Below are positions 7,568-31,001 of a DNA stretch of 64,000 bases, piece by piece. A program made the translations under genes and the position numbers. A model generated the notes under the pieces. The model did not search any database, had not been told where the DNA came from, and was given only the letters and a program-made list of their open reading frames with translations. Each line of letters starts with the position of its first letter. Within the stretch, counting starts at the first letter, position 1. This DNA comes from Verrucomicrobiota bacterium (GTDB taxonomy: Bacteria > Auribacterota > JABMQX01 > JAFGEW01), in contig JAFGEW010000124.1 in assembly GCA_016931415.1 (NCBI GenBank), positions 1-64,000 on the forward strand, read 5' to 3'.

Positions 7568-7960
7568 ATGAGCAGCAACGGCAAGGGCTTCACACTCGTT
7601 GAGATCATGATCGTGGTCGCCATCATCGGCTTGCTCCTGGCAATCGCGATCCCCAACTATGGCAAGGCGCGCGAGACGGTCCAGCGCAACACGTGCCTCG
7701 AGAACCAGCGCCTCGTCGTCTCGTCCTCCGTGACGTACGCGATGGAGAACAACACCAACTTCCCGGAGGGCGCCAACAGCGTCGCGTTGCGCGACACGCT
7801 GCTGAGCAACGAGTACATCCGCAATCGCAACGCGTTTGCATGCCCGGCCAGCGGCGCTGACGACAGCGCCGATTACGTGCTGACCTACGCCGGTGCTGGC
7901 ATCGACGGCATCTGCTGCACCATCGAGCCAGCAGTGCACGCGTTGGACTGGAACGACTAG
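7568..7960 (+). CDS. Type IV prepilin-like protein (second)
   Basis: 130 aa. The leader MSSNGKG is followed by FTLVEIMIVVAIIG, the same hydrophobic N-terminal helix as the first prepilin, and by a globular region with AFACPASGADDSADYVLTY, a shared pilin motif. A terminal CC pair is at about residue 115. It starts at ATG 7568 after GGAGACGG; the frame is open upstream to 7349 but that would hide the leader. The DNA encoding the first 25 residues is nearly identical to that of the gene before it, showing tandem duplication. It could be a minor pilin or an alternative major pilin. Confidence 0.9.
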   Translation: MSSNGKGFTLVEIMIVVAIIGLLLAIAIPNYGKARETVQRNTCLENQRLVVSSSVTYAMENNTNFPEGANSVALRDTLLSNEYIRNRNAFACPASGADDSADYVLTYAGAGIDGICCTIEPAVHALDWND

Positions 7961-8730: not shown

Positions 8731-9762
8731 ATGTTTGGGAAAAGAAAGCGCAAGCGCATAGCCGTTGGCGTCGATATCGGCAACAGAGCCGTCAAAACCG
8801 TCGCCCTGGAGACGGACACCGTCAAGGGCAAACACCGGCTCGTGGGATACCACGTCGCCGCCACCCCCGGAGTGGCCACAGCCATGTCCGACAAAGCGCT
8901 GGGCGATCTCGTGCACGCGGCGGTGGCCAAGTGCCCCGGCGACGAGCACGGCGTGCGCGCATCGGTGTCGGGCAACGTGGTCGTGGTTCGCTACATCCGG
9001 ATGCCCAAGATGGATCTGCAGGAGCTTCGGTCCTCGATCCGCTACGAGGCCGGCCAGCACATCCCATTCGACGTCAAGGAAGTCGAGCTCGACTGCACCA
9101 TTCTGCGCGCGCCGCAGAACGGCGACGGCAAGATGGAGGTGATGCTCGTGGCGGCGCGCAAGAACGCCTGCGAGCGCGTGCTCAATATCCTCAAGGCGGC
9201 CAAGCTGACCGCCAACTGCATCGACGTCGACCCGGTGGCCACGATCAATGCCTATCTTCTCTCGCACCCCAGCGACACGGACAAGCCCACGGCGCTGCTC
9301 AACATCGGCGCCAAGCAGACCACTGTCAGCATCCTGTCGGCCGGCATCCCGGCCTTCACGCGCTGCATCGAGATCGGCGGCGAGGGGCTGTCGCTCGCGA
9401 TCGCGCGCGGACTGGGCGTCGAGCTCGAAGAGGCCGAGCGGCTCAAGGTCTTCGGCGACTCGCTCATCCAGCCGCACATCGAGATGGTGCTCAACAGTAT
9501 CGCGCGCCAGGTGCGCACCTCGTTTGACTACTTCGAGGGACTCGCCGGCCGCACGGTGGCGGCCCTCTACGTAAGCGGCGGCACCGCCAAGCTCGACGGC
9601 ATCGGCGAGTTTCTTAGCGAGGCGCTCGGTGTTCCAGCCCACGAGTGGGATCCTCTCGAGGGCATCGACACGTCGGACTTCGCCACTGACGACGCACTGC
9701 CATCGCTGGCACCGACACTCGACGTTGCCGTGGGTCTCGCGGCACGGTCTGTCGAGACGTGA
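8731..9762 (+). CDS. pilM: Type IV pilus assembly protein PilM
   Basis: 343 aa. PilM is a cytoplasmic actin-like ATPase-fold protein that binds the N-terminal tail of PilN and links the inner-membrane complex of the pilus to other parts. The sequence shows the actin-fold phosphate-1 motif VGVDIGNRAVKTVAL at about 10-24, SIRYEAGQHIPFDVKEV, typical of PilM, at about 107-123, and the second nucleotide site ALYVSGGTAKLDGIGEFL at about 280-297. A strong ribosome-binding site GGGAGG precedes ATG 8731. It is followed after 32 bases by pilN; together pilM-pilN-pilO-pilQ form an operon. Confidence 0.95.
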   Translation: MFGKRKRKRIAVGVDIGNRAVKTVALETDTVKGKHRLVGYHVAATPGVATAMSDKALGDLVHAAVAKCPGDEHGVRASVSGNVVVVRYIRMPKMDLQELRSSIRYEAGQHIPFDVKEVELDCTILRAPQNGDGKMEVMLVAARKNACERVLNILKAAKLTANCIDVDPVATINAYLLSHPSDTDKPTALLNIGAKQTTVSILSAGIPAFTRCIEIGGEGLSLAIARGLGVELEEAERLKVFGDSLIQPHIEMVLNSIARQVRTSFDYFEGLAGRTVAALYVSGGTAKLDGIGEFLSEALGVPAHEWDPLEGIDTSDFATDDALPSLAPTLDVAVGLAARSVET

Positions 9763-9794
9763 TGGGCGACGCACGAACGTCGCACGGAGAAGCC

Positions 9795-10424
9795 ATGATC
9801 GAGATCAACCTGCTGCCAGAACAGCTCCGGGGGCGCACTCAGACGGCGCCCAAGAAGACGCCCACGCTGGCGCCCATACCCAAGGCGTTTCCGATCGCGC
9901 TCGCGAGCTTGACGGTCCTGATGGTGCTGCTCATCGTGGTGTCGAGCACGCGGGCCGGCGCCGGCCAGCGCCGGCTCCGCGAGGTCGAGGACGAGCTCAA
10001 GCAAGCCAAGGCGCAAGCCACCGAGGCCGAGCAGGTCACCGCCAGCCTGCCAGCCATCGAGGCCCGCTACGGGGTGCTGGCCGACCGCCTCGACGGCAAG
10101 ATTATGTGGGCCGAACTGCTGCGCGTCGTCGCTCTGCGCTGCCCCGAGGGGGTGATGCTCACGTCGGTCAAGATCGAGATCGATCGACGGACCAGTCAGC
10201 CGGCCCGCCTCGTCATTGCCGGCGCCTACGATGGCACCTCGAGCCTCGAGATGCTGTTCGCCAACGGGCTCAAGGAGTCGGCGACATTCTCCAACGTGTT
10301 CGAGTCCGTCATCCCCGAGAAGAACCTCGAGCCGGACGGCCGGACCAGCTTCGCGCTGTTCTGCGCGTTCCGGCCCCGGATCGACCCCCTTCTCAACGCG
10401 ACTGACAAGGCCCAGACGCCATGA
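9795..10424 (+). CDS. pilN: Type IV pilus assembly protein PilN
   Basis: 209 aa. PilN is a bitopic inner-membrane protein. The first residues MIEINLLPEQLRGR contain the INLLP motif that inserts into PilM. A transmembrane helix is at about 37-55, followed by a heptad-rich region (LREVEDELKQAKAQATEAEQV) and a ferredoxin-like domain with the family pattern WAELLRVVALRCPEGVMLTSV. The start chosen is ATG 9795, because it directly gives the INLLP motif; in-frame GTG and ATG codons lie upstream at 9759 and 9762. Its end overlaps pilO by four bases (ATGA). Confidence 0.93.
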   Translation: MIEINLLPEQLRGRTQTAPKKTPTLAPIPKAFPIALASLTVLMVLLIVVSSTRAGAGQRRLREVEDELKQAKAQATEAEQVTASLPAIEARYGVLADRLDGKIMWAELLRVVALRCPEGVMLTSVKIEIDRRTSQPARLVIAGAYDGTSSLEMLFANGLKESATFSNVFESVIPEKNLEPDGRTSFALFCAFRPRIDPLLNATDKAQTP

Positions 10425-11359
10425 GCTACTCGAAGGAACAGACTCAGACCATCGCGCTGGTCGTGCTGATCGGCCTGGTCATCGCTGTCGGCTCCTACAT
10501 GGGAATGATCAAGCCCAACCTCGGCCGCGCCGGCAAGCACGAAGCGAGCTTCCAGAAGCTCTCCGCCGACCTGGCCCAACAGCGCCGGCTGCTCAAGAGC
10601 ACCCTCGACGATGTTCAGCACGCCAAGGCCATCGAGGCGCGCACCGCAGAGCTCGAGGCGAGCCTGCGCCACGGGCTGTTCGCCGGCCGGCTCACGAGCT
10701 GCTTCGAGGAGCTTCGCCGCGCGCACGGCTTCGACTTCCGGTTCACCAACGACCTCGAGCGCATCGAGCCGGTCAGCGGCGGGCGCTACTACGAACTGGC
10801 GAACAGCTTCGAGATCCTCTCGTGCCAGTTCTTCAACCTCGTGCGCTTCCTCCAGGTGCTCGAGACCACACACCCGAGCGTGCGGATCAGCAGCATCGAG
10901 GTCTGGCCGCACGACACAGCGGCGGCCGACGGTCGCATCGTCGCCCGCATCGAGTTGCGCGTCTTCGGCCTCAAGGACGGCCAGGACGCGCCCTGGGAGA
11001 GCGCCTCGGTCGAAGCCTCCAAGCTTGAGGGCCGCAACCCGTTCGCGCCGCCGGGGGTCATCGAGCTCGACGTGCACCGCGGCCTGCGCGCCCAGCTTGC
11101 CCTGATTCAGTTTCAGGGCACGATCGACGGCAACGCCTGGCTGCGGCCCGCGCCGGGCACGTCCGCCACGGTCGTCAAACAAGACCAGCGCTTCCGACTT
11201 GGCGCCGGGGACGGTGAGATCGTGCGCCTCGTGCGTTTCTCGCGCAACACACTTGTCGTCTACCACGAGGCAAGCTCGCAGTACTTCAAGCTGACGCTCT
11301 TCACCGCCGGCGATCGGGCCGGGCAGGTTGAGTCCGTTGAGGAAATCACACCGGAGTAA
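10421..11359 (+). CDS. pilO: PilO-like pilus protein with C-terminal PilP-like extension
   Basis: 312 aa, longer than the roughly 200 aa of a standard PilO. Residues 1-200 form a PilO: short cytoplasmic start, transmembrane helix at about 10-30, coiled-coil (LSADLAQQRRLL...IEARTAELEASL), then a ferredoxin-like domain. After about residue 200 comes EGRNPFAPP, the hallmark that begins the ordered part of PilP. A beta-rich stretch (FQGTIDGNAWLRP...FRLGAGD) follows, like the PilP domain that contacts PilQ. No separate pilP gene is present between pilO and pilQ, which supports a natural PilO-PilP fusion. The ATG overlaps the pilN stop. Confidence 0.85.
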   Translation: MSYSKEQTQTIALVVLIGLVIAVGSYMGMIKPNLGRAGKHEASFQKLSADLAQQRRLLKSTLDDVQHAKAIEARTAELEASLRHGLFAGRLTSCFEELRRAHGFDFRFTNDLERIEPVSGGRYYELANSFEILSCQFFNLVRFLQVLETTHPSVRISSIEVWPHDTAAADGRIVARIELRVFGLKDGQDAPWESASVEASKLEGRNPFAPPGVIELDVHRGLRAQLALIQFQGTIDGNAWLRPAPGTSATVVKQDQRFRLGAGDGEIVRLVRFSRNTLVVYHEASSQYFKLTLFTAGDRAGQVESVEEITPE

Positions 11360-11434
11360 CCTACGACTGTTCCCACGGAGCAGTGAAAGCGACGCGTGAG
11401 CGTCGTACGGCACAGACGCAAGGAGGGTTCCACA

Positions 11435-12970
11435 ATGCGCTGCGCGATCAGGCCGCTGTTTTGGCTCGCAGGCCTCGTGCTGTCCATCTCGATGACGCTC
11501 GCGTTCACGTCCGCCGCCGCCTCGGCCACCGAGGCCGACGAGGCCGACGAGGGGGATGCGAACGACCTCGAGACGACCGTCGAAGAAGAAGGGGGCTTGA
11601 GCCCCGAGGAAGATCTGCTTAGCAGCCAGTTCGACGAGAGCGATGGCGCGGGCGCGCTTGAGCTCCAGGAGGGGAAGGTCACGTTTGCCCTGCAGGGCGC
11701 CGACGTGCGCGACTTCTGCAACTGGTTCGCGGAGCGGCTCGAGATCAACATCGTGCTCTCGCCCAAGGTCATGGGCCCGATGAACATCTCGCTGACAAAC
11801 GTCCCCTGGGAGACCGCGCTGCGCAAGGCGCTCAAGACCCACGGCTACGTGCTCACTGTCGACGAGAACGGCATCTACACGGTCATCACCCAGGAAGAGG
11901 TCGCCGCCGAGCCGCTGCAGACCGAGATCTACAGCCTCAGCTACGCCTCGGCCAAGCAGGCAGCCGAGATCGTCAAGCCGCTGCTTACCGCCGACCGCGG
12001 CACGGTGCAGTACGACGTCGACAGCAACCAGCTCGTCGTCACCGATGTGCCGGCCAAGCTTGCCGATGTCGAGCGCGTGCTGGTCAAACTCGACCGGCAG
12101 ATCGCCCAGGTGCAGATCGAAGTCAAGCTCGTCGAGAAGACCTCGACGGACGGCTCCGACCTCGGCATCAAGTGGTCATCGCTCGAGAGCTACGCGGTCG
12201 GCGCCTCGAGCATCAAGCGCACCTACAGCCACGACAAGCTGCGCACCGACCGGAACCTCATCTACACCAACGAGGCGTGGAGCCAGCAGATCGAGCCAAC
12301 CCGCGGCCTGGAAACGCGCACCGTCGGGGGCAGCCGGGTCACCGGAGACCCCGAGCTGGCGATCCCGCTCGAAGAGGTCGTCAAGGACGTCACCAAGACA
12401 CTCATCCTGTCGGCAAGCGACTTCAGCATCGTGTTCAGCGCGCTGCTGCGCGAGGACAACACCGAGCTTATCTCGAGCCCGAGCGTCACCACGGTGGACA
12501 ACCGCACCGCGACGATCAACGTGACGCGCCTGCTGCCGATCCCCAAGTACACCTACAACGAGGAGACCGGCTCCTACGAGATCAGCGACTTCTCGGAGAA
12601 AGAGGTCGGCATCAAGCTCGAGATCACCCCGCAGGTCAATCAGGACGACTACATCACGATGGATGTCCGGCCGGAGCTGTCGACCCAGTTCGGCAACCAG
12701 GTCTTCGTCATCAGCGGCTCGGAGATCACCATCCCGATCATCGACACGCGCAACGCGAGCACGCGCGTGATCGTAAAAAGCTCCGAGACCCTCGTGATCG
12801 GCGGGCTCACCAGCACCGACGAGACCATCAGCGTCACCCGCGTGCCGGTGCTGAGCAGCATCCCGATCGTGGGCAACCTGTTCAAGCACAAGGCCACCGA
12901 CAAAGTCAAAACGGACCTGTTGATCTTCATCACGCCGACGCTGGTCAAGGGCGCTGCCGACGAGAGCTAG
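11435..12970 (+). CDS. pilQ: Type IV pilus secretin PilQ
   Basis: 511 aa. PilQ forms the outer-membrane ring through which the pilus passes. A signal peptide (about 1-36) and an acidic linker come first. Next is an STN/secretin N0 domain (about 70-150; VTFALQGADVRDFCNWF) and an N1 domain (about 155-235; YSLSYASAKQAAEIVKPLL). The secretin core (about 300-505) contains VGIKLEITPQV, ETLVIGGL and VPVLSSIPIVGNLFK, the standard secretin closing motif. AMIN domains found in longer PilQ proteins are missing. Start ATG 11435 follows AAGGAGGG. It closes the pilM-Q operon and is followed by a long hairpin. Confidence 0.95.
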   Translation: MRCAIRPLFWLAGLVLSISMTLAFTSAAASATEADEADEGDANDLETTVEEEGGLSPEEDLLSSQFDESDGAGALELQEGKVTFALQGADVRDFCNWFAERLEINIVLSPKVMGPMNISLTNVPWETALRKALKTHGYVLTVDENGIYTVITQEEVAAEPLQTEIYSLSYASAKQAAEIVKPLLTADRGTVQYDVDSNQLVVTDVPAKLADVERVLVKLDRQIAQVQIEVKLVEKTSTDGSDLGIKWSSLESYAVGASSIKRTYSHDKLRTDRNLIYTNEAWSQQIEPTRGLETRTVGGSRVTGDPELAIPLEEVVKDVTKTLILSASDFSIVFSALLREDNTELISSPSVTTVDNRTATINVTRLLPIPKYTYNEETGSYEISDFSEKEVGIKLEITPQVNQDDYITMDVRPELSTQFGNQVFVISGSEITIPIIDTRNASTRVIVKSSETLVIGGLTSTDETISVTRVPVLSSIPIVGNLFKHKATDKVKTDLLIFITPTLVKGAADES

Positions 12971-13200: not shown

Positions 13201-14778
13201 ATGGCCAAAGAGATCATCATCAACGTCGAACCGACCGAGAAACGCGTCGCCGTCATGACCAACGGTGTGCTCGAGGAGTACTACTTCGAGCGCAGCGAGA
13301 ACCTCCGGATCACGGGCAACATCTACCGGGCCCGGGTCGTCAAAGTCATGCCCGGCATCCAGGCAGCGTTTGTCAACACCGGCCTGCGGAAGAACGGCTT
13401 CCTCCACGTCTCGGACATCACCGGCGAGGGCGCGCCGATCGAGGCACTCGCCGGTGAAGAGCTTGACGAAATCAAGCCCGCGGCCCCGCGCCGCCACAAA
13501 GGCCATCGCCTCATCGAAGACCTCGTCAAGCAGGACGAGGACCTCCTCGTGCAGGTCGTCAAGGAATCCATCGGCACCAAGGGGCCACGGCTCTCGACCA
13601 ACATCAGCCTGCCCGGCCGCTACCTCGTGTTGCTGCCGACGACGCCCCGGCTCGGCATTTCGCGCCGCGTCACCGACCGCGCCGCACGCGACAGCCTGCG
13701 CCAGCTTGCCGAGACGCTGCCCGTGCCCAGCGGCATGGGGCTTATCATGCGCACCTATGCCCAGGAGCGCACCAAGCGCGAGGTCACGCGCGACCTCCAG
13801 GCCCTCATCACACTTTGGGAGGAAATCCAGGCACGCTACAAGGCGGCCAAGAAGCCTACCGTCCTCCACAACGAGACCGAGCTGCTCACCCGCGTCGTGC
13901 GCGACGCGCTGGCCGAGGAGGTCGATCGCATCGTCATTGACTCGCGCAGCGACTACCGGGAGCTGCGCAGCTTCGTCTCGGCCTCCGGAGCCACGGGCAT
14001 CAAGGTGGAGCTCCACACCGCGCGCACACCGATCTTCGAGGCCTACGGCATCGACGCCGAGATCGAGAAGGCCTGCCGTCGCCGCATCTGGCTCAAGTGC
14101 GGCGGCTCGATCGTCATTGAGCGCACCGAGGCGATGGCCACCATCGACGTGAACACCGGCCGCCACGTCGGCCAGCGCCCCGGCCCGGGCCAGCATGCTG
14201 ACGCCGAGGACACCATCCTGACCACCAACCTCGAAGCCGCCGTCGAGGTGGCCCGCCAGCTCAAGCTGCGCAACATGGGCGGGCTGATCGTCATCGACTT
14301 CATCGACATGCGCTCACGCACCAACCAACGCAAGATCTACAGCACGCTGCTCGCCGCGCTCAAGGACGACAAGGCGCGCACCACCGTGCTGCCGATCAGC
14401 AAGCTTGGCCTCGTCGAGATGACACGCGAGCGCGACAAGGAGAGCTTGGGCGAGGAGCATTTCGGCGAGTGCCCGTATTGCCGCGGCACGGGTCGCATCA
14501 AACAGGTCGGCACGGTCAGCCTCGAGGTGCAGCGCGCGCTGCGCAAGCTCGTCGCCCTGGGCAGCGCGGGCGAGTACAAAGTCTGCGCCCATCCCGACGT
14601 GATCGACCGGCTTCGAAACGAGGATGCCCCGGGCGTCGACAAACTCCTCAAGCGCTCCAATCTGATCGTCGAGTTCCTTCCGATCACCGACTACCACCTC
14701 GAGGAATGGCACTGCTACCCGACCCAGGCCGGCGATCTGGAGGAGGAGTTGCAGCAGATGCGGCCCCCGCGCGAGTAG
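13201..14778 (+). CDS. rng: Ribonuclease G/E family endoribonuclease
   Basis: 525 aa, the length of RNase G rather than the longer RNase E. It cleaves single-stranded AU-rich RNA and processes rRNA and mRNA ends. Residues 36-120 hold the S1-like domain (GNIYRARVVKVMPGIQAAFVN, GFLH), with a basic insertion typical of the family. The DNase I-like catalytic region shows EAMATIDVNTGR near 315 with the metal-binding Asp, and LIVIDFIDM near 362 with the second Asp. The zinc-link is CPYCRGTG near 423. The upstream ribosome-binding site is weak. A short hairpin overlaps its stop codon. Confidence 0.95.
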   Translation: MAKEIIINVEPTEKRVAVMTNGVLEEYYFERSENLRITGNIYRARVVKVMPGIQAAFVNTGLRKNGFLHVSDITGEGAPIEALAGEELDEIKPAAPRRHKGHRLIEDLVKQDEDLLVQVVKESIGTKGPRLSTNISLPGRYLVLLPTTPRLGISRRVTDRAARDSLRQLAETLPVPSGMGLIMRTYAQERTKREVTRDLQALITLWEEIQARYKAAKKPTVLHNETELLTRVVRDALAEEVDRIVIDSRSDYRELRSFVSASGATGIKVELHTARTPIFEAYGIDAEIEKACRRRIWLKCGGSIVIERTEAMATIDVNTGRHVGQRPGPGQHADAEDTILTTNLEAAVEVARQLKLRNMGGLIVIDFIDMRSRTNQRKIYSTLLAALKDDKARTTVLPISKLGLVEMTRERDKESLGEEHFGECPYCRGTGRIKQVGTVSLEVQRALRKLVALGSAGEYKVCAHPDVIDRLRNEDAPGVDKLLKRSNLIVEFLPITDYHLEEWHCYPTQAGDLEEELQQMRPPRE

Positions 14779-15132: not shown

Positions 15133-15486
15133 ATGACGGAACTGACAGGAGTCCTCGACGACATCGTCAGCGGCGCCGGCATGCGCTTTGCCTGCATCGT
15201 CTCGGGCGATGGGTTCCTGATCGAGAACTCCACGGCGATCGAGGAGAGCGACGAGGTCGCCAGCGCCACGGTCACTTCGATCCTGCGCGCCGTGCAGGAG
15301 GCCGGTGATGCGCTCGCGTTCGGCTCGACGGCACAGATCATGATCCAGTACCAGGACGGTTGGCTGCTCGTGACCCGGCTCACCGAGGAGTGTTTGCTCG
15401 TGGCCGCGGTCAACAACGAATCCAACCTCGGCTGGGTGCGCCACGCGATCCGCAAGCACACCAAGCAGATAACCGACGCGCTCTAG
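15133..15486 (+). CDS. Roadblock/LC7-domain protein 1
   Basis: 117 aa, a single roadblock/LC7 domain: an initial helix (LTGVLDDIVSGAGMRFACIVSGDGFLIEN), then ATVTSILRAVQEAGDAL and QIMIQYQDGWLLVTRLTEECLLVAAV. Such proteins dimerise and often act as GTPase-activating partners of MglA-type small GTPases (MglB is the model). The next gene, 63 bases on, encodes such a GTPase. Start: ATG 15133 with AAGGAG ten bases upstream; GTG 15124 is an alternative. The arrangement suggests that it is the direct MglB-like partner, but several other roadblock proteins in the cluster compete for this role. Confidence 0.85.
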   Translation: MTELTGVLDDIVSGAGMRFACIVSGDGFLIENSTAIEESDEVASATVTSILRAVQEAGDALAFGSTAQIMIQYQDGWLLVTRLTEECLLVAAVNNESNLGWVRHAIRKHTKQITDAL

Positions 15487-15549
15487 CCTGCTCGCAGCGC
15501 CGACGCCCATACGCGCGCGCGGCCGGGCGCATCGAGAGAAAGGGATGCC

Positions 15550-16164
15550 ATGTCCGCGATCAACTACGCCTCCAAGGAGATCTACTTCAAGATCGTCTAC
15601 TATGGGCCGGGGATGGGCGGCAAGACGACCAACTTGCAGTACATCCACGAGGCCGTCCCGCAGACCAACAAAGGCGACCTGGTCAGCCTGGCCACCGATC
15701 AGGACCGCACCTTGTTCTTCGACTTCCTGCCCGTCGAGGCGATTCAGATCCACGGCTTCACCACGAAGTTCCAGCTGTACACCGTGCCGGGCCAGGTCCA
15801 CTACAACGCCACGCGCAAGCTTGTGCTGCGCGGCGTCGACGGCGTGGTCTTCGTGGCCGATTCCCAGTGGGAGAAGATGCAGGAGAACGTCGAGAGCTTC
15901 CGCAACCTCGAGGAGAACCTCGCCGAGTACGACTACTCGTTCGACGAGGTCCCGTATGTGCTCCAGTACAACAAGCGCGATCTGGCATCGATCGCGCCCA
16001 TCGACTACATGGACTACCTGCTCAACCGGCGCCCGACGCGCGTGTCGACCTTCGAGTCGGTGGCCACCGCGGGCGTGGGCGTGTTTGACACGCTCAACCG
16101 CGTCGCCAAGCTCGTCCTGCACAAGTTGAGCAAGGAGATGGCGGCGCACACGTCGGCCCGCTAG
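15550..16164 (+). CDS. mglA: MglA-like small Ras-family GTPase
   Basis: 204 aa, matching MglA, the prokaryotic Ras-like GTPase that sets cell polarity for gliding and pilus-driven motility. The P-loop is YYGPGMGGKTTN at about 18-29. The switch II region reads YTVPGQ in place of the DxxG of Ras, as expected for MglA. The base-recognition motif is NKRD near 137. The Thr-rich switch I region falls around TDQDRTLFFDFLP. Length matches MglA (about 195-205). It is flanked on both sides by roadblock proteins. Symbol is given by family; whether it controls motility here is inferred from the nearby pilus genes. Confidence 0.92.
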   Translation: MSAINYASKEIYFKIVYYGPGMGGKTTNLQYIHEAVPQTNKGDLVSLATDQDRTLFFDFLPVEAIQIHGFTTKFQLYTVPGQVHYNATRKLVLRGVDGVVFVADSQWEKMQENVESFRNLEENLAEYDYSFDEVPYVLQYNKRDLASIAPIDYMDYLLNRRPTRVSTFESVATAGVGVFDTLNRVAKLVLHKLSKEMAAHTSAR

Positions 16165-16221
16165 GTCCCGCCCGCAGCGGGGCCTTCGGGACGACAAGTG
16201 CACACGGAAGGAGAGTTTGCC

Positions 16222-16701
16222 GTGGCTGGCTGCAACTGGGTGTTGTTCGAGGAAGACGTCGAGCGGATCAACACAACACTCGACGTGTTCCTGCGCGAAA
16301 CCGAAGCCAAGTGCGTGCTCGTCATCGACAAGGGAGGCCACCTCATCTCCGTGCGGGGCGTGACCGACTCGATGAACACTGCCTCGCTTTCGGCACTCGC
16401 GGCCGGGGCGTTCGCTTCGACGCGCGAGATCGCCCGCCTCATCGGCGAGCCCGAGTTCAGTGTGCTGTTCCACCAAGGCCGCCGCGAGCACATCCACGTC
16501 TCGCTCATCGACGACGACACGTTGCTCATGGCCATCTTCGACGATCATACGACGATCGGCATCATCCGCCTCTACGCCAAGGACACCGAGGAAGAGATCG
16601 CCCGCCTGTTCGCCGACGTGCGGGGCCAGCGCCGGAGCGGCGCTCGGGTGCTTGAGGAGCTCGACGGCGCCCAGGTCGACACCCCGTTCCGGTCGGCCTA
16701 A
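16222..16701 (+). CDS. Roadblock/LC7-domain protein 2 (MglB-like)
   Basis: 159 aa. Roadblock domain over about 1-120 (INTTLDVFLRETEAKCVLVIDKGGHLISVRG, ALAAGAFASTREIARLIG, VSLIDDDTLLMAIFDD), matching MglB, followed by a 35-residue helical tail. AAGGAG sits nine bases before GTG 16222, which is why that start is preferred over GTG 16198. MglB normally stimulates GTP hydrolysis by MglA. The adjacency and the typical MglB pattern (CVLVIDKGG..ISV) make this the strongest MglB candidate of the cluster. Confidence 0.87.
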   Translation: MAGCNWVLFEEDVERINTTLDVFLRETEAKCVLVIDKGGHLISVRGVTDSMNTASLSALAAGAFASTREIARLIGEPEFSVLFHQGRREHIHVSLIDDDTLLMAIFDDHTTIGIIRLYAKDTEEEIARLFADVRGQRRSGARVLEELDGAQVDTPFRSA

Positions 16702-16721
16702 GGCGAGGCACAGGCAGACCC

Positions 16722-17447
16722 ATGGGACTCGCCGGCAACCTGAGAGACCTAAGCATCACCAATCTCATCGAGCTGAGCTGCGTCGAGAAAACCCGCTCGC
16801 AGCTTCTGGTAAAGACGCGCTCGGGCGATGCCATCGTCTTCTTCGACCGCGGCAATATCGTCCACGCCCGCTGCGGCGACCTGAAAGGCACCGCGGCGCT
16901 CTATCACATCCTGCGGCTCACCGACGGCGAGTTCCGCGTCACCACGAGCGTCGCCGCGCCCGAGCGGACCATCTTCGAGTCCTGGAAGGGCCTGGTGCTC
17001 GACGGCATGCGTGTGCTCGATGAGACCCAGCGCATCAAAGACACAATCGCCCACGGCTTGGCCGAGGAGCTCAAGGCGCTCTCGGGCATCCTGCGGCTGC
17101 TCGTGGTCTCCAAGGACGGCGCCGTCGTACACCAGCAGGGAGCCGCCGACCCCGAACGGGCCTACGCGCTCAGCGCCTTTCTCACCACCCACGGTGCGGC
17201 GCTCAGCGACATGCTCCACTTCGGTCCGCTCAACTACGCCGCCTACGTACGCGGCAACGAGAAGGAATTCGTCTTCAACTGCGATCCGTTCCTCGTGCTG
17301 CTTGCCGTACCGCGTGCGGCCGACATCCGGCCGACGAGCGCCCTGATCGAGACCATCCGGGCCAAGCTCAAGTCGAGCGAGCACGTCCTGGTGCCCGACG
17401 CCGCGAGCGATTCCGTGGCCAGACCTGGGGAGGCGGCGCGCCGATGA
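16722..17447 (+). CDS. DUF4388 (PATAN) plus roadblock-like protein
   Basis: 241 aa. The first ~95 residues match the DUF4388/PATAN domain: GLAGNLRDLSITNLIELSCVEKTRSQLLV, a characteristic -FFDRGNIVHARCGDLKG- and ALYHILRLTDGEFRV. PATAN domains are found in response regulators and in proteins linked to MglA/pilus polarity in other bacteria. Residues about 110-215 form a roadblock-like domain (LSGILRLLVVSKDGAVVHQQGAADPER...). It overlaps the next gene by four bases. A scaffold or adaptor in the GTPase pathway is likely; no enzyme motif is seen. Confidence 0.8.
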   Translation: MGLAGNLRDLSITNLIELSCVEKTRSQLLVKTRSGDAIVFFDRGNIVHARCGDLKGTAALYHILRLTDGEFRVTTSVAAPERTIFESWKGLVLDGMRVLDETQRIKDTIAHGLAEELKALSGILRLLVVSKDGAVVHQQGAADPERAYALSAFLTTHGAALSDMLHFGPLNYAAYVRGNEKEFVFNCDPFLVLLAVPRAADIRPTSALIETIRAKLKSSEHVLVPDAASDSVARPGEAARR

Positions 17448-17971
17448 CGCCTCTGCTCAACAGGCTGCTCCGACGTGGGAACCGGGCGATCTCCGAGGTG
17501 CTCGACCCGCTCGCCGCCGTGCCCGGCGTGACTGACTACGCGCTGCTCGACGCCGCGGGCGGCGTGCTCGCGCGCACGTCGAACTTCGGCTACACCGAGG
17601 AGCGGCTGCGCGAGTGCGGCGCCGTGCTGCGGCGCACCAGCACGCTCGTCAATGAGTATCTCTGCGCCAGTCCCCGGGGCACCGGGGACGCCGCGCCGGA
17701 CGAACCGCTCGCGCTGCACTTCCGCAACGGCTGGCTGCTCGCCTGGCTCATCGGCGGCGCGCTGCTCATCGTGTTCGGACGCGAGGGCCTCGACCTGCCA
17801 ACATTGCGCATGCGCGTGAGCATCTTGCGCACCGAGCTGACTGATGACAAGCGCTTCCGCCGGTCGCTGGCCGAACGCCGCGAGACGGGCCCGGCCTGGC
17901 TGCGCCAGACGGCCGCTTCGGAAACCGAACGATGCTGGATCGACGCCATCTGCGGGGAGGGCCGGACATGA
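17444..17971 (+). CDS. Roadblock-like protein 3 (diverged)
   Basis: 175 aa. Residues about 15-125 have the outline of a roadblock/LC7 domain (VLDPLAAVPGVTDYALLDAAGGVLAR..., LHFRNGWLLAWLIGGALLIVFG), more diverged than the other members. The C-terminal 50 residues are basic. It overlaps neighbours on both sides (ATGA and ATGA), so it is part of a tightly coupled operon. Its role is unclear; it may pair with the PATAN-roadblock protein. Confidence 0.65.
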   Translation: MTPLLNRLLRRGNRAISEVLDPLAAVPGVTDYALLDAAGGVLARTSNFGYTEERLRECGAVLRRTSTLVNEYLCASPRGTGDAAPDEPLALHFRNGWLLAWLIGGALLIVFGREGLDLPTLRMRVSILRTELTDDKRFRRSLAERRETGPAWLRQTAASETERCWIDAICGEGRT

Positions 17972-18255
17972 TTCCCGACGATCCCGTGGGCAACGCGGCG
18001 CCTCGCGCCGACGACGACAAGGTCATCGCCGTGGTTCGTGCCGAGTTCACGCGCGCCATCGGCCCGATGGCCCACGTCGTGCTCGACGAACTGCTGGCCT
18101 CGTTCACTCCCGGCGGCGGTCAGGTCCCGCCCCAGAAGTGGCCCGAGCTCATCGAGAAGCTCGGCTGGGAGATCCACAGTGACCGCCGGCGAGTCGCCTT
18201 CCAGAAACAGGCGCTGAGCCGGCTCCAGGAACTGCGCCAGGAGGACCACCCATGA
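17968..18255 (+). CDS. Small conserved-looking protein of the MglA cluster
   Basis: 95 aa, soluble and mainly helical. The centre reads VIAVVRAEFTRAIGPMAHVVLDELL, a pattern seen at the C-terminal end of some bacterial signalling proteins next to roadblock genes. The rest is charged. GGGGAGG precedes ATG 17968; both ends overlap neighbouring genes by four bases, which strongly supports that it is real and co-translated. No function can be assigned; a helper or adaptor role is guesswork. Confidence 0.6.
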   Translation: MIPDDPVGNAAPRADDDKVIAVVRAEFTRAIGPMAHVVLDELLASFTPGGGQVPPQKWPELIEKLGWEIHSDRRRVAFQKQALSRLQELRQEDHP

Positions 18256-19040
18256 CGGCCCACGCCGAACGGCCGGGCGGACGCGCCACGCTGCGCTGGA
18301 CGCTGTGCGTCACGGCTGTCGTCATCATCGTCGGCTCGGCAGCGCTCTTTCTTGCGCTCCTGCGCGACGGTGTCGAGCGCTTCGTGCGTCAAGATGAGAT
18401 CTCCGGCCTGCGCGGTGGCGCGCTCGTCGAGCTTCGGACCCGCTGCAAGGACTATGTGCTCAATCCAGACCGGGAGGCGATCGAGAAGTATCTCGTCTCC
18501 CTCACCGAGCAGCACGAGTCGATCGCGTATGTCGGCTTCGTTGACCCGCATCTCGAGGGTGACGGGCTGGTCTCGAGCATGACCGAACCGGCCTCTGGAC
18601 TGCTCGATGCAGCTCGAGACGCCGCGGCCGTACCTGAGGGGCGTACACGGCGCGTCGGCGGCGAGCTCGTGATCGATTTCACCGAGACGATCCAGGCCGA
18701 TCCTGCCTACACCGTCCACGTCGGCCTGCGCCAAGCCGTGATCCGCGAGCGCACGCGCAGCCTGTTCGTGCGCATGACGATCATAGCGGCCCTCATCGCC
18801 GCCGCCGGCGCGGCGCTCGCCTGCGGGGTTATCCTGCTCATCGTCGGCCCCGTCGACAAGCTTGTCGCCGATGCGACGCGCCTGAGCTTGGGCGACATGC
18901 GCGTCACCTTCACCCCGCGCGGCCGCGGCGAGCTCGGCCGGCTCGCCGACACCCTCGATCGGCTCAAGGAAAGCGTGCTCTGCGCGCTGCGCCGCAGCGG
19001 CGTGAAGTCGGCCGGTCCCAAGCCCGAAGACAAAAAGTAG
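18252..19040 (+). CDS. HAMP-domain membrane sensor without output domain
   Basis: 262 aa. A short cytoplasmic start is followed by a transmembrane helix (about 16-37), an extracytoplasmic region of about 135 residues (RCKDYVLNPDREAIEKYLVSLTEQHESIAYVGFVD, sensor-like), a second helix (about 178-200) and a HAMP domain (about 200-250; VGPVDKLVADATRLSLGDM). It then ends in about 20 charged residues: no kinase, methyl-accepting or cyclase domain. It must signal through a partner protein. The position inside the GTPase operon suggests that it feeds an envelope signal to the roadblock/MglA module. Confidence 0.8.
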   Translation: MTAHAERPGGRATLRWTLCVTAVVIIVGSAALFLALLRDGVERFVRQDEISGLRGGALVELRTRCKDYVLNPDREAIEKYLVSLTEQHESIAYVGFVDPHLEGDGLVSSMTEPASGLLDAARDAAAVPEGRTRRVGGELVIDFTETIQADPAYTVHVGLRQAVIRERTRSLFVRMTIIAALIAAAGAALACGVILLIVGPVDKLVADATRLSLGDMRVTFTPRGRGELGRLADTLDRLKESVLCALRRSGVKSAGPKPEDKK

Positions 19041-19041
19041 C

Positions 19042-19070
19042 TTGACAGCCTGAAACTCCCCTGCCTAGCC
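19042..19070 (+). promoter_or_regulatory. Possible sigma-70-type promoter before the V4R gene
   Basis: A perfect TTGACA lies at 19042-19047, just after the HAMP gene stop, with CTAGCC 17 bases on as a poor -10 box. It could drive the V4R-ParA part of the cluster separately. Weak evidence because of the poor second element. Confidence 0.3.
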
Positions 19071-19140
19071 TTGCCCATACGCCGCAGTGCAGGCCAGGAT
19101 CGTGCCGCGGCCGTTTGCCGACGGATTCCAGCCGGGAGCC

Positions 19141-19818
19141 ATGCCCATGCCGAGACCCTTGAGATCGACAAGCTCGGGCAACATCGACTTCGAGTCCTTC
19201 TTGACCTCGAACGCCTCGACGGGCGAGATCCGCACCAGGCGCGACGCCCGCGCCGTGGTGCTTACCGCGGAATCGTTCCTGGCGCTCGCCGACGCCGTGC
19301 GCGACCGCCTCGGCGACGAGGTGAGCGAGGTGCTCTACCGGGCCGGGCATGCCTGGGGCCGCCAGCGCTTCGCTGACTTCGCTCAGGACACCGAGCAATC
19401 CGGCGGCGTGCTCTACCACCTACGCAACATGGGCATCGAGCACTTCAAGGACCTGTTCAACGATCTGCTCGTCTGCGGCGGCTGGGGCACGTTCACCATC
19501 GAGGAACGCCACGAAGTCGTGCTTGTCCACGTTCATAACTCGGCCTTCCACGAGATGGTCTCGAGCACCGACCGGCGCTACACCGACTTCTTCGCCGGCT
19601 TCCTCGCCGGTTTCTTCAGCGAGCTCATCGGCGTCAAGCTCGACGCCGTGCAGATTGGCGGCTTCGGCGAGACGCAGGAGCCGTGCACGTTCCTGCTCGC
19701 CGATGCCGCCATCATCACCGCCGCCCGCCGCTGGCTCGACGCCGGCAAAGGCGTCGACGAGGTGCTCGAGCTTGTCCGGACCGGCGAATACGACGCCCAC
19801 GCCACGTCGAAAAGCTGA
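19141..19818 (+). CDS. V4R-domain (Bet3-like) protein
   Basis: 225 aa. A 30-residue flexible start precedes a V4R (4-vinyl reductase) domain, about residues 40-195. It contains LGDEVSEVLYRAGHAWGRQ, GGWGTFTIEERHEVVLVHVHNSAF, then FFAGFLAGFFSELIGVKLDAV and the terminal EPCTFLLA with the conserved Cys. V4R is the prokaryotic relative of eukaryotic Bet3, a core subunit of the TRAPP complex that acts on Rab GTPases; it often binds small hydrophobic ligands. Start ATG 19141 follows GGGAG; the frame opens earlier but without a better site. The location beside MglA and roadblock genes is striking (see findings). Confidence 0.75.
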   Translation: MPMPRPLRSTSSGNIDFESFLTSNASTGEIRTRRDARAVVLTAESFLALADAVRDRLGDEVSEVLYRAGHAWGRQRFADFAQDTEQSGGVLYHLRNMGIEHFKDLFNDLLVCGGWGTFTIEERHEVVLVHVHNSAFHEMVSSTDRRYTDFFAGFLAGFFSELIGVKLDAVQIGGFGETQEPCTFLLADAAIITAARRWLDAGKGVDEVLELVRTGEYDAHATSKS

Positions 19819-19830
19819 CGGAGCCAGCCG

Positions 19831-20316
19831 ATGACCAGCCGGCCCAAGCCCGAACGACAACGTCCCGCGGACAACGCCGCGCGTCAGGATGACGCCTTCG
19901 AGGAAGCGCTCGAGGCCGCCGAAGTCTTCGGCGAACTCGCCGAAGATGAACCCCGCACCCTCGCCGTCGAGCCGCTCGAGACGGTCACCGAACCCGAGGA
20001 GGCCGGCCGGCAGAACGACGCGGCGTTCGCCGACGAGTTTGACCTGCGCGGCGTCGTCGCCCGCGCCGAGGCCGCCCTCGACTCCGCTGAAGCGACGTTG
20101 CTCGACAACACCCCGCCTCCCGAGACGCCGCCAGCCCCCGTTGTCGAGTCGCCGCCGGCGCCGCAGTCCGCACCGGCACAGCCTGCCGCCCCGGTCGGCG
20201 GCCGCTCCATCGGTCAGCTCTTCAGCACGGTGGTCAAACACTCCCCGCCATCGAGAATCCGGATCGAGCCCGACTCGGTCGGCGCTCTGTTCCGACGGTT
20301 CATCGAGCAGGAATGA
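19831..20316 (+). CDS. Acidic, Pro/Ala-rich linker protein
   Basis: 161 aa, largely disordered: residues 1-95 are rich in Glu, Asp and Ala, residues 95-125 are mainly Pro and Ala. The conserved-looking part is the last 35 residues (SIGQLFSTVVKHSP...DSVGALFRRFIEQE), which could be a docking helix. It begins 12 bases after the V4R stop and ends 7 bases before the ParA gene. Such charged linkers with a short terminal motif often link a ParA ATPase to its cargo. That role is inference; no family was recognised. Confidence 0.6.
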   Translation: MTSRPKPERQRPADNAARQDDAFEEALEAAEVFGELAEDEPRTLAVEPLETVTEPEEAGRQNDAAFADEFDLRGVVARAEAALDSAEATLLDNTPPPETPPAPVVESPPAPQSAPAQPAAPVGGRSIGQLFSTVVKHSPPSRIRIEPDSVGALFRRFIEQE

Positions 20317-20323
20317 TCGCCCC

Positions 20324-21118
20324 ATGAGCGACAGGAATCGCCCGATGTGCGAGGTGATCAGCGTCGTCAGTCAGAAGGGCGGCGTGGGGAAGACAACGAC
20401 CGTGCTTTGTCTCGGCGCCTTCCTGGCGCGCGCCGGATCACGCGTTCTGCTCCTGGACCTCGACGTGCAGAACGGCTTGGCGCTCGGCGTTGGGCTGGCC
20501 AAGAGCGAGCGCGCCGCGGGCACCTACGACGTGCTCACCCACCGCATGCGCCTCGACGACGTCCTTCGCCCGACGCGCTTCGAGCGGCTTGACGTGGTGC
20601 CCTTCGGCGAGTCCTCGGTCAGCCCCACGCTCGTCGAGGCGACCTTCGGCCTCGGCAGCACCAAACGCACGTTCGCCGATGCGCTCGCCAAGCTGCGCGA
20701 GCATTACGACTACATCCTGGTCGACAGCCCATCGGGCAGCGCAACGACCATCAAGTTCGCGCTCTTCCGCGCCGACAGTGTGCTGCTGCCGCTGCAATGC
20801 CAGCCGTTGGCCCTGCGCATCCTGCCCGGCCTGCTGCGCACCATCCGCGCCGTCAAACACACGATCAACCCCACGCTGCGCATCCGCGGCCTGCTGCTGA
20901 CCATGTTCGACCTCTGGGACGACACGAGCGAGCACATCGCCTCGCAGGTCTGGGCCCACTTCCCCGAGCGGCTGGTGTTCCGCACCACGATCCCCAAGTC
21001 CGACCTCTTCCAGAACCTCTTCTCCAACGAGGCCAACCCCTTGATCGAGGCCGACCCGCCGGAGGCGCTCCGCGCCTACGAGCTCATCGCCGAAGAGATC
21101 GCCGGCAAAGGGCGATAG
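20324..21118 (+). CDS. ParA/MinD-family ATPase of the MglA cluster
   Basis: 264 aa. A deviant Walker A box KGGVGKTTTV (about 17-26) with the signature lysine identifies the ParA/MinD family of dimerising ATPases that position plasmids, chemoreceptors or protein clusters. The switch I region reads DLDVQNGLAL instead of the usual DxDPQ, and Walker B is YILVDSPSG near 133. There is no N-terminal HTH and no amphipathic MinD tail, so it resembles orphan ParA-type positioning proteins. The frame extends far upstream, but ATG 20324 sits 7 bases after the linker gene. It is probably a positioning partner of the GTPase system. Confidence 0.88.
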   Translation: MSDRNRPMCEVISVVSQKGGVGKTTTVLCLGAFLARAGSRVLLLDLDVQNGLALGVGLAKSERAAGTYDVLTHRMRLDDVLRPTRFERLDVVPFGESSVSPTLVEATFGLGSTKRTFADALAKLREHYDYILVDSPSGSATTIKFALFRADSVLLPLQCQPLALRILPGLLRTIRAVKHTINPTLRIRGLLLTMFDLWDDTSEHIASQVWAHFPERLVFRTTIPKSDLFQNLFSNEANPLIEADPPEALRAYELIAEEIAGKGR

Positions 21119-21256: not shown

Positions 21257-21982
21257 ATGCGGATGCGAGCTTTCACACGCGACGCGGTCTTCGTCGTGGG
21301 ACTCTGCAACATCGTGGCGGGCGCATTGATCTTCTTCCTGTTCGCGCAGATCCTGGACTTGTTCCGCATCGAGGCGGACGTCCAGGCACTGACGCCCGTC
21401 GTCCGAGTCGCCGCCTTGTTCCTGTTCGTCTTCGGCGTCGGCTACCTGTTCGCTTCGAGCAATGTGGTAGGCAACCACCTCATGCTTTTCGTGGGGCTGC
21501 TCCAGAATGCTGGCATCGTGGGCATCGTCGTCTGGTACTGGCTCTATGAGCCGGGGCAGATACCGTACGCTTGCCTCCTGCCGGCCGGGTTGAGCGCCTT
21601 GTTCGCCCTCGTCTTCCTCATCACTTGGCCGGGAGCGCTTGTCGAGGCGCGTCTCCAGCGCCGGCGCACGCACCTCGTCAAGGTCGCGCCGTCGAGACCG
21701 GCTGCACCGCCGCCCACCCGCGAACCCGCCGCCGAACCGGAACCCGAGCCGGCTGGGATCGAGGAGGGGACCTTCCCGTCCGAAGAGGTGCGTCCCGACA
21801 AAGAGGCGTCCACCGCGGCCACGGTGGAACCAGAGCCGCTGGAGCTCGAACCGGGCGCCACGGAGATAGCGCCGCCGGAAGAACCAGCGGGACCTCCGCC
21901 CGACGTGCCGCCGCTCCGTCCTCTGGCCTACCGCGACCGGAGCGGTGCCGACGCGGAGAACACGCCCGACGCGCCTAAGTGA
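21257..21982 (+). CDS. Membrane protein with Pro/Glu-rich tail
   Basis: 241 aa. Four hydrophobic segments (about 9-29, 45-62, 71-90 and 98-122) fill the first half. From about 140 on, the tail is rich in Pro, Glu and Ala (for example EPAAEPEPEPAG), is probably cytoplasmic and has low complexity. AAGGAGG precedes ATG 21257. No recognised family; the compact four-helix part resembles small DUF-type membrane proteins. It has its own promoter and is followed by a long gap, so it appears to be a single-gene unit. Confidence 0.7.
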   Translation: MRMRAFTRDAVFVVGLCNIVAGALIFFLFAQILDLFRIEADVQALTPVVRVAALFLFVFGVGYLFASSNVVGNHLMLFVGLLQNAGIVGIVVWYWLYEPGQIPYACLLPAGLSALFALVFLITWPGALVEARLQRRRTHLVKVAPSRPAAPPPTREPAAEPEPEPAGIEEGTFPSEEVRPDKEASTAATVEPEPLELEPGATEIAPPEEPAGPPPDVPPLRPLAYRDRSGADAENTPDAPK

Positions 21983-25898: not shown

Positions 25899-26777
25899 AT
25901 GGCCGACTCGCCGGCCGGCCGGATCGTCACGGTCGCCAATCAGAAAGGGGGCGTGGGCAAAACCACGACCGCCATCAACCTGGCCGCGTGCCTGGGGCGC
26001 GACGGGTTGCGCGTGCTCCTGATCGATTTCGACGCCCAAGCCAATGCCACCAGCGGGCTGGGCAAGCGCGACGAGGCCGAGACGCGCAACATCTACCGCG
26101 CCATCACCGGCGAGCAGGCCATCGACGACTGCGTCCTCGAGACCGGCTGCGCCAACTTGTGGCTCATCGGCTCGACGCCCGACCTGGCTGGCGCCGAGGC
26201 CGAGCTCATCGAGGTACCCGGCCGCTACACGGTGCTGCGCGAGCGCCTCGATCGCCTTACCCTGTCGTTCGACTACACGATCATCGACTGCCCGCCGGCG
26301 CTGAGCCTGCTGACCGTCAACGCGCTGTGCGCCGCCAACCGCGTGCTGGTACCCGTGCAGTGCGAATACTACGCGCTCGAGGGGCTGAGCCAGCTCATCC
26401 GCACGCTCAACCTCGTCCACAAGAAGATCAATCCGAAGCTCGTCATCGACGGCTTCGTGCTCACCATGGCCGATAGCCGCACCAACCTGAGCCAGCAGGT
26501 TGCCGGCGAAGTGAGGCGGTTCTTCAAAGACAAGGTGTACGAGACCGTCATCCCCCGCAACGTCAAGCTCAGCGAGGCGCCCGGCTTCGGCAAGTCAGTG
26601 GTTGACTACGACCCACACAGCAGCGGCGCCGAGGCGTACTGCGCGTTTGCCACCGAGTTCAGACTCCGCCAGAACCATGCCGCACCCCCCACCCCGCTCG
26701 ACGAGCCAGGGCCGATGACAGGGGAGCAGGACCGAGGGAGACCGAGGGAGGGAAGAGGAGAGCAGGAGAACCGGTGA
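25899..26777 (+). CDS. ParA/Soj-family chromosome partitioning ATPase
   Basis: 292 aa. It is a close match to Soj/ParA: deviant Walker A QKGGVGKTTTAINLAA at about 15-30, LLIDFDAQANATSGLG with the conserved DxQ, YTIIDCPPALSLLTVNAL as Walker B, QCEYYALEGLSQL, and the closing VIPRNVKLSEAPGFGKSV..YDPHSSGAEAY. Such proteins act with ParB at parS sites near the origin. No parB follows here; the next gene is on the other strand. The final 40 residues are a charged low-complexity tail. It is clearly distinct from the ParA-type gene at 20324. Confidence 0.9.
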   Translation: MADSPAGRIVTVANQKGGVGKTTTAINLAACLGRDGLRVLLIDFDAQANATSGLGKRDEAETRNIYRAITGEQAIDDCVLETGCANLWLIGSTPDLAGAEAELIEVPGRYTVLRERLDRLTLSFDYTIIDCPPALSLLTVNALCAANRVLVPVQCEYYALEGLSQLIRTLNLVHKKINPKLVIDGFVLTMADSRTNLSQQVAGEVRRFFKDKVYETVIPRNVKLSEAPGFGKSVVDYDPHSSGAEAYCAFATEFRLRQNHAAPPTPLDEPGPMTGEQDRGRPREGRGEQENR

Positions 26778-30539: not shown

Positions 30540-31001
30540 ATGCTCCGCAGTAATCGAGGCCTGACACTCGTCGAGCTCATGCTCGTCGTCTTCATCATCG
30601 GCATGCTGGGTGCTGCTGCCGCCGGCTCGCACATGCGCGCGCGCGAGCGCAGCCAACAGGTGCTTTGCCTCCAGTATCGTCAGGCGATCGAGGCCGCCGA
30701 AGAACGCTACGTCCTCGGCGAGGGCCTGCATTCACCCGCTCTGGCGGATCTCGAAGCGAAAGGCTACCTCGCCCTGTTCGAGACCTGCCCCGCCGGAGGC
30801 TCCTACGCTTGGGAAGAGCAAGACCCCGACAGCGCCCTGTACCGCACGGCGCTCGTCTGCTCCATCCACGGCACCACAGACGATCCCCAAGGCGGTGGCC
30901 AAGCAGCAGGCCGCCAGCGGCAGAACTTGCGGCAATACCGTCCCGGGCCTAATCCGCCTCGGCACCCAGACCACGACTCAGGCGTCTCACGACAAAGATG
31001 A
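30540..31001 (+). CDS. Prepilin-like protein with N-terminal methylation motif
   Basis: 153 aa. MLRSNRG-LTLVELMLVVFIIGMLGA fits the prepilin leader, with G before the cut and mature E5; the first residue after the cut is Leu, an uncommon but known variant. The globular part includes CLQYRQAIEAAEERYVLG and TCPAGGSYAWEEQ, the pilin pattern. The last 50 residues become Gln/Arg/Pro-rich. The 3' end overlaps the convergent gene by 53 bases. It is 14 bases after the zinc-finger protein, so it belongs to the pilB operon and is probably a minor pilin. Confidence 0.85.
   Translation: MLRSNRGLTLVELMLVVFIIGMLGAAAAGSHMRARERSQQVLCLQYRQAIEAAEERYVLGEGLHSPALADLEAKGYLALFETCPAGGSYAWEEQDPDSALYRTALVCSIHGTTDDPQGGGQAAGRQRQNLRQYRPGPNPPRHPDHDSGVSRQR

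Follow-up and report, generated by a model that had tools for sequence, protein, structure and literature searches.

The window analysed here, a 64,000-nucleotide stretch of contig JAFGEW010000124.1 from a Verrucomicrobiota bacterium (GTDB phylum Auribacterota), carries a candidate type IV pilus control module: an operon of ten genes, all on the forward strand at positions 15133-21118, encoding an MglA-type Ras-like GTPase, roadblock proteins, a small helical protein (g6), a membrane sensor with a HAMP domain, a protein assigned to the V4R/Bet3 family, a disordered linker and a ParA-family ATPase (Table 1). Upstream of it, in order, lie a pilin-like gene, PilM, PilN-like, PilO-like and PilQ genes, and RNase G. 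An earlier reading of the sequence (the original prediction) had proposed that the ten genes form a module resembling the eukaryotic TRAPP complex. All ten open reading frames are confirmed as co-directional, at or near the coordinates first given, but the description of many ATGA overlaps slightly overstates their number, which is three (at 17444, 17968 and 18252), with remaining gaps of 7-100 nucleotides. The inventory also left g6 unnamed, and the account of the locus overlooked the pilM-N-O-Q genes directly upstream.

Table 1. Genes of the operon and of the adjoining type IV pilus region, with the evidence used to assign them (TM, transmembrane).
Feature	Coordinates	Strand	Evidence
rb1, gene 1, roadblock (MglC/CvnB-like)	15133..15486	+	PF03259 (Robl_LC7) 36.5 bits; PDB roadblock 7f8m 2.5e-5
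MglA Ras-like GTPase, gene 2	15550..16164	+	Myxococcus xanthus MglA in PDB, 242 bits, 3.7e-71
rb2, gene 3, MglB-like roadblock	16222..16701	+	Robl_LC7 38.9 bits; M. xanthus MglB 95.9 bits
Gene 4, N-terminal DUF4388 (PATAN-type) and C-terminal roadblock	16722..17447	+	PF14332 61.9 bits
rb3, gene 5, divergent roadblock	17444..17971	+	Profile only: A6 against PDB roadblock 7yh1, 4e-4
g6, gene 6, small four-helix protein	17968..18255	+	Motif E-x5-(I/V)GP-x-A; no known family
Membrane sensor, gene 7	18252..19040	+	PF00672 (HAMP) 27.2 bits
V4R/Bet3-fold protein (putative), gene 8	19141..19818	+	Glycine doublets, orthologue, profile, fold search
Proline-rich disordered linker, gene 9	19831..20316	+	Alignment with G011; without Pfam match
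ParA-family ATPase, gene 10	20324..21118	+	PF13614 (AAA_31) 128.5 bits
Type IV pilin-like protein	7570..7957	+	Prepilin motif GFTLVEIMIVVAIIGLLLAIAIP; start approximate
PilM	8731..9762	+	PF11104 153 bits
PilN-like	9789..10424	+	Position between PilM and PilO, one N-terminal TM segment; without Pfam match
PilO/PilP-like	10421..11359	+	Position; orthologue beside PilQ in G011; without Pfam match
PilQ secretin	11396..12970	+	PF00263 150 bits
RNase G	13201..14778	+	PF10150 320 bits

The GTPase, predicted as such from the outset, retains the P-loop GPGMGGKTT, the switch-I Arg53 and the stretch Thr78-Val-Pro-Gly-Gln82 in alignment to 5ymx; because the P-loop, Arg53, Thr78 and Gln82 are all present, it appears catalytically complete and should bind and hydrolyse GTP. 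The likeness of rb2 to M. xanthus MglB extends over residues 3-134 (1.9e-26), with a score below the NCBIfam equivalog cut-off (200 bits) for NF052242, and the likeness of rb1 to MglC is weak. For the C-terminal roadblock of gene 4 the Robl_LC7 score is 15.0 bits in the window and 30.9 bits, above the cut-off, in its orthologue from G011, a genome of the same class and another family (81%-complete assembly). The expectation of four roadblock or roadblock-like proteins and a PATAN domain was therefore correct: rb1 and rb2 are clear, gene 4 is recognised through its orthologue and rb3 through its profile, and the PATAN domain is the DUF4388 region of gene 4. An extra stand-alone roadblock protein is encoded far from MglA in the window's own genome (G000:C79:26226-26471; L195:6109-6516).

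The model of g6 has four helices (pLDDT, the predicted local distance difference test score, of 77.8) and found no match in a fold search against PDB structures; the protein is kept across three lineages, and fusions of it occur in Zixibacteria, where its partner is a roadblock, and in two deltaproteobacteria, where the partner is DUF4388. The sensor comprises a transmembrane segment, an extracytoplasmic domain of about 135 amino acids, a second transmembrane segment, the HAMP domain and a short conserved tail, RLKESxLxALRR, and ends some 20-30 residues past HAMP, where the sensors of actinobacterial conservons have a histidine-kinase region. The tail, approximately R(L/I)(K/R)xSLxxALxRL with small changes, is present in all six sequences compared from four lineages, always in proteins encoded beside DUF4388, g6 or roadblock genes. 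Where the earlier description has a HAMP sensor without output, the tail itself would be the output, acting non-enzymatically by docking on a constant neighbour.

The identity of gene 8 required several lines of evidence. Against the Pfam V4R family it scores 14.1 bits where the cut-off is 31; the G011 orthologue, with which it shares 39% identity along the length of the protein, reaches 40.5 bits. Under the check that the original prediction set for itself, a match to the V4R profile, the assignment therefore stands only by way of relatives. With a family profile of 21 sequences, the best match is PoxR (5e-5), followed by the archaeal V4R protein MJ1460, and the nearest solved relatives of gene 8 by sequence are the ligand-sensing PoxR and MopR (phenol sensors), not TRAPP. 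Both the window protein and its orthologue carry G-x3-G doublets (G69/G73 and G153/G157) of the kind common to V4R and Bet3 in helices 2 and 5 (Podar and colleagues, PMC2253512). A single-sequence AlphaFold model, of low confidence (pLDDT 49.6), retrieves in Foldseek mainly YslB, DmpR/PoxR, Bet3/TPC6 and BcsD structures, with the BcsD entries 7zzq, 8poc and 8pog among the best. Taking orthologue, profile, glycines and predicted fold together, we accept gene 8 as a putative V4R/Bet3 protein. At positions occupied in its relatives by the near-invariant Cys148 and Glu171 it has Thr and Gln, and the zinc-site residues are mostly lost; because of these replacements a PoxR-like zinc site is unlikely.

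The disordered linker and the ParA named by the original prediction are both there. In comparison with G011, the linker has a conserved N-terminal acidic stretch and a C-terminal motif, SIGxLFxxVVKxSPxxxxRIExxSxGxLFRRFIE, on either side of a middle that is not conserved. Gene 10 has a deviant Walker A motif, KGGVGKTTT, with the signature lysine; its nearest solved structures are ParA and Soj, and its score for CBP_BcsQ is 48 bits against the 128.5 bits for AAA_31, with TIGR03371 below its cut-off (BcsQ is itself a ParA-type ATPase). No MinD-like C-terminal membrane helix is seen in gene 10. Directly 3' of it, at 21257-21982, lies a gene for a membrane protein whose C-terminal tail is long, acidic and rich in proline and which has no Pfam match. 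It may be a further member of the operon, but the G011 contig stops short of the corresponding position. Further along the window are a Soj-like ParA (25899-26774), a PilB/GspE-like ATPase with a T2SSE match (28239-29378) and a pilin-like gene (30540-30998).

A single further genome of the class was found, G011, where the order runs PilO, PilQ, RNase G, two response regulators, rb1, MglA, DUF4388-roadblock, rb3, g6, HAMP, V4R, linker and ParA, so that nine of the ten operon genes are collinear with the window, as the idea of a conserved gene set demanded, and do not lie at unrelated loci. Protein identities range from 25% to 77% (MglA 77%, rb1 40%, most others 25-41%); because most proteins are only 25-41% identical and yet the order is kept, the arrangement must be old, and order maintained at 25-77% identity likewise argues that the set is not a product of chance. 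The two response-regulator genes of G011 (L085:5434-7457) encode a CheY-like receiver and an NtrC-type regulator; the window has neither between RNase G and rb1. At the thresholds used, MglA and V4R are absent from 42 other genomes of the phylum.

Outside the phylum, the parts of the operon recur separately. Two Zixibacteria loci (L014 and L096) carry a type IV pilus operon with seven of the module's components and without V4R, linker or ParA: roadblocks including an rb3-like one, a receiver-DUF4388-roadblock protein, a roadblock-g6 fusion, the output-less HAMP sensor, a TPR-roadblock protein, rb1, MglA and MglB, followed by PilB, PilT, PilC and PilS, with PilR in L014. Relative to this operon, the window differs in having DUF4388 without a receiver and g6 as a separate gene, in possessing V4R, linker and ParA, and in adjoining PilM/N/O/Q rather than PilB/T/C/S/R. 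The Zixibacteria clusters (L014:2067-9298 and L096:5043-12163) hold at least seven roadblock, DUF4388, g6, HAMP and MglA genes, and in them g6 is separated from HAMP by a gene for a beta-helix repeat-like protein. Two deltaproteobacterial genomes have a roadblock-sized protein, a DUF4388-g6 fusion, a HAMP protein of the same kind and a receiver-DUF4388 protein together, without adjacent MglA; these loci (L100:8419-11369 and L101:7554-10519) lie near lptD, and the former also adjoins flagellar genes.

The reverse arrangement is found in Gemmatimonadota. There, V4R is present in 117 of 150 genomes, nearly always as a single copy, and a ParA-family gene lies 1-3 kilobases downstream of it in 21 of 23 loci (19 of the 20 drawn and two of three earlier), where the chance of such proximity for one locus is about 0.3-0.7%. 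In the loci read by eye, a TPR protein stands between V4R and ParA, in the place of the window's linker, and within the V4R loci examined there is no match for MglA. Because V4R sits beside ParA, without adjacent MglA, throughout this phylum, its steady neighbour is ParA and not the GTPase. A V4R search of 95 genomes from the phylum of genome G044 (a Rokubacteria record) returned nothing, in a search that had no positive control there; a V4R match in the Zixibacteria genome G055 is a 376-residue protein whose gene has two-component genes as neighbours, and we regard it as unconnected with the module.

Since the MglA/roadblock/HAMP set occurs without V4R in Zixibacteria, and V4R occurs with ParA in Gemmatimonadota, we favour, with moderate confidence, a reading in which two joined sub-modules make up one module for the control (polarity) of type IV pili, one that probably governs the place and time of pilus use. 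Gene content, kept order, linkage to pilus genes and separability in other phyla are the observations from which we infer the interactions, signals and output that follow. In the first sub-module, MglA would be the switch under its roadblock regulators, with the MglB-like rb2 as GTPase-activating protein and rb1, the DUF4388-roadblock protein and rb3 as further dimeric platforms; the sensor would relay a signal from the envelope to these roadblock proteins, its post-HAMP helix probably docking on g6 or the roadblocks, and MglA-GTP would then recruit or switch on the pilus machinery, as in Myxococcus. In the second, a V4R homodimer, possibly binding a hydrophobic ligand, would be tied through the linker to ParA, which would place the assembly, the three proteins forming a positioning or scaffold unit that would seem more like BcsD-BcsP-BcsQ of cellulose secretion than TRAPP. 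The regulation of the GTPase by roadblocks, input through HAMP and positioning by ParA, as read originally, are reasonable on this account.

Among characterised systems, the polarity module of M. xanthus (MglA, MglB, MglC and RomR) is one of the closest to the operon, with its strong MglA match, the MglB-like rb2 (96 bits) and the weakly MglC-like rb1. There, PilB reaches the leading pole through the action of MglA with its effector SgmX, part of a role of MglA in the localisation of type IVa pili (PMC11580455). The Myxococcus module serves these pili and also gliding, and here pilus genes adjoin the operon; however, no RomR- or RomX-like gene is seen in the operon, which adds HAMP, DUF4388, g6, V4R, linker and ParA. 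Actinobacterial conservons (CvnA-D) likewise combine a HAMP kinase-like membrane sensor, a roadblock and a Ras-like GTPase in one operon (PMC4316618, PMC13343842), but the window's sensor lacks a kinase domain, a DUF742-type gene is missing, and both phylum and pilus context differ.

Several observations weigh against the two-sub-module reading. PilB and PilC in the window's genome, and PilB and PilT in G011, are on other contigs. The MglB-like rb2 is absent from the G011 locus, and no other MglB-like roadblock was found in that 81%-complete assembly. A scan of the operon for sigma-70 promoters and terminators picked out no clear candidate and gave no sign of a single transcript; it carries little weight because the genome has a GC content of 67%. 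The V4R-ParA synteny of Gemmatimonadota reflects shared descent and perhaps one ancestral event; a ParA tree yields three groups with an uninformative split and long branches, the module's ParA being not clearly closer to V4R-linked ParAs than to Soj; and in genome G121 a Soj-type ParA outscores the V4R-linked one against it.

The alternatives differ mainly in the role that they give to V4R. As an element of a TRAPP-like regulator (TRAPP comprising Bet3/Trs33/Trs31, longins and Rab1), V4R would join roadblock dimers as an exchange factor or tether on MglA, in the manner of Bet3-type and longin proteins on Rab1. V4R is a Bet3 homologue (PMC2253512), TRAPP subunits are among the fold matches of gene 8, dimers of roadblock and of longin proteins contact GTPases in a similar way (PMC10933270), and a Ras-superfamily GTPase and a roadblock-type partner are co-encoded with V4R in both genomes of the class. 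Yet MglA/roadblock modules with HAMP and g6 manage elsewhere without V4R, which is dispensable there, V4R is kept with ParA where no MglA adjoins it, its closest solved sequences are ligand sensors, and the Rab exchange core of TRAPP is a longin heterodimer (PMC10933270), whereas Pfam finds no longin domain among the ten proteins and the GTPase is an MglA. An exchange factor of this kind has no specific support, and we think it quite improbable; overall, the original prediction is supported in part. Should V4R instead be an independent PoxR-like sensor, feeding a hydrophobic-metabolite or lipid signal to MglA with ParA a passenger or separate positioning gene, its PDB matches to phenol-sensing domains and the proposed ligand binding of Asgard V4R proteins (PMC10933270) would be explained; the loss of C148 and E171 and the age of the V4R-ParA linkage make this unlikely.

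A further possibility keeps V4R with its ParA. BcsD, the proline-rich BcsP/BcsH and BcsQ form cytoskeletal scaffolds that serve the secretion of cellulose (PMC11470070), a likeness of V4R/TRAPPC3 to BcsD has been noted in work on Asgard TRAPPC3 (PMC10933270), and by analogy V4R, linker and ParA might hold pilus machines in place, the V4R-fold protein oligomerising, the proline-rich protein stringing or anchoring it and the ATPase exerting control. BcsD structures are among the best fold matches and the same three kinds of gene are adjacent in the window; however, the V4R model is of low confidence, there is no Pfam Cellsynth_D match, the ATPase is nearer Soj than BcsQ, the context is a pilus locus and Gemmatimonadota have a TPR protein in the linker's place. 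Such a scaffold is, on balance, somewhat unlikely. That nothing but gene packing unites the ten, as unrelated genes on one transcript with no common function, would fit a full order confined to two genomes of one class, but nine genes kept in order despite 25-41% identity for most, and the recurrence of parts together in other phyla, render it highly improbable.

The proximity of MglA to MglB and PATAN (DUF4388-type) genes is already documented (PMC4316618); what would be new is the joining of V4R, linker and ParA to MglA, roadblocks and HAMP beside pilus genes. The papers searched yielded no operon in which MglA is accompanied by an output-less HAMP sensor, V4R, linker and ParA and adjoins type IV pilus genes, in agreement with the earlier statement that no described system was known to have the full gene set. 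The broader notion that roadblock dimers and a Bet3-family protein regulate or position a Ras-like GTPase, whether as a parallel or relic of TRAPP or through a BcsD-like V4R-linker-ParA pilus anchor, is tentative and rather doubtful. Under the two-sub-module reading, the Bet3-like protein may work with a positioning ATPase rather than with the GTPase switch, and the recurrent, uncharacterised V4R-ParA pair is a separate lead that can be tested. The operon suggests how a signal from the envelope could reach a Ras-like switch with no kinase in between, and it allows one to ask, in a natural setting, whether Bet3-type proteins already worked near small GTPases in bacteria.

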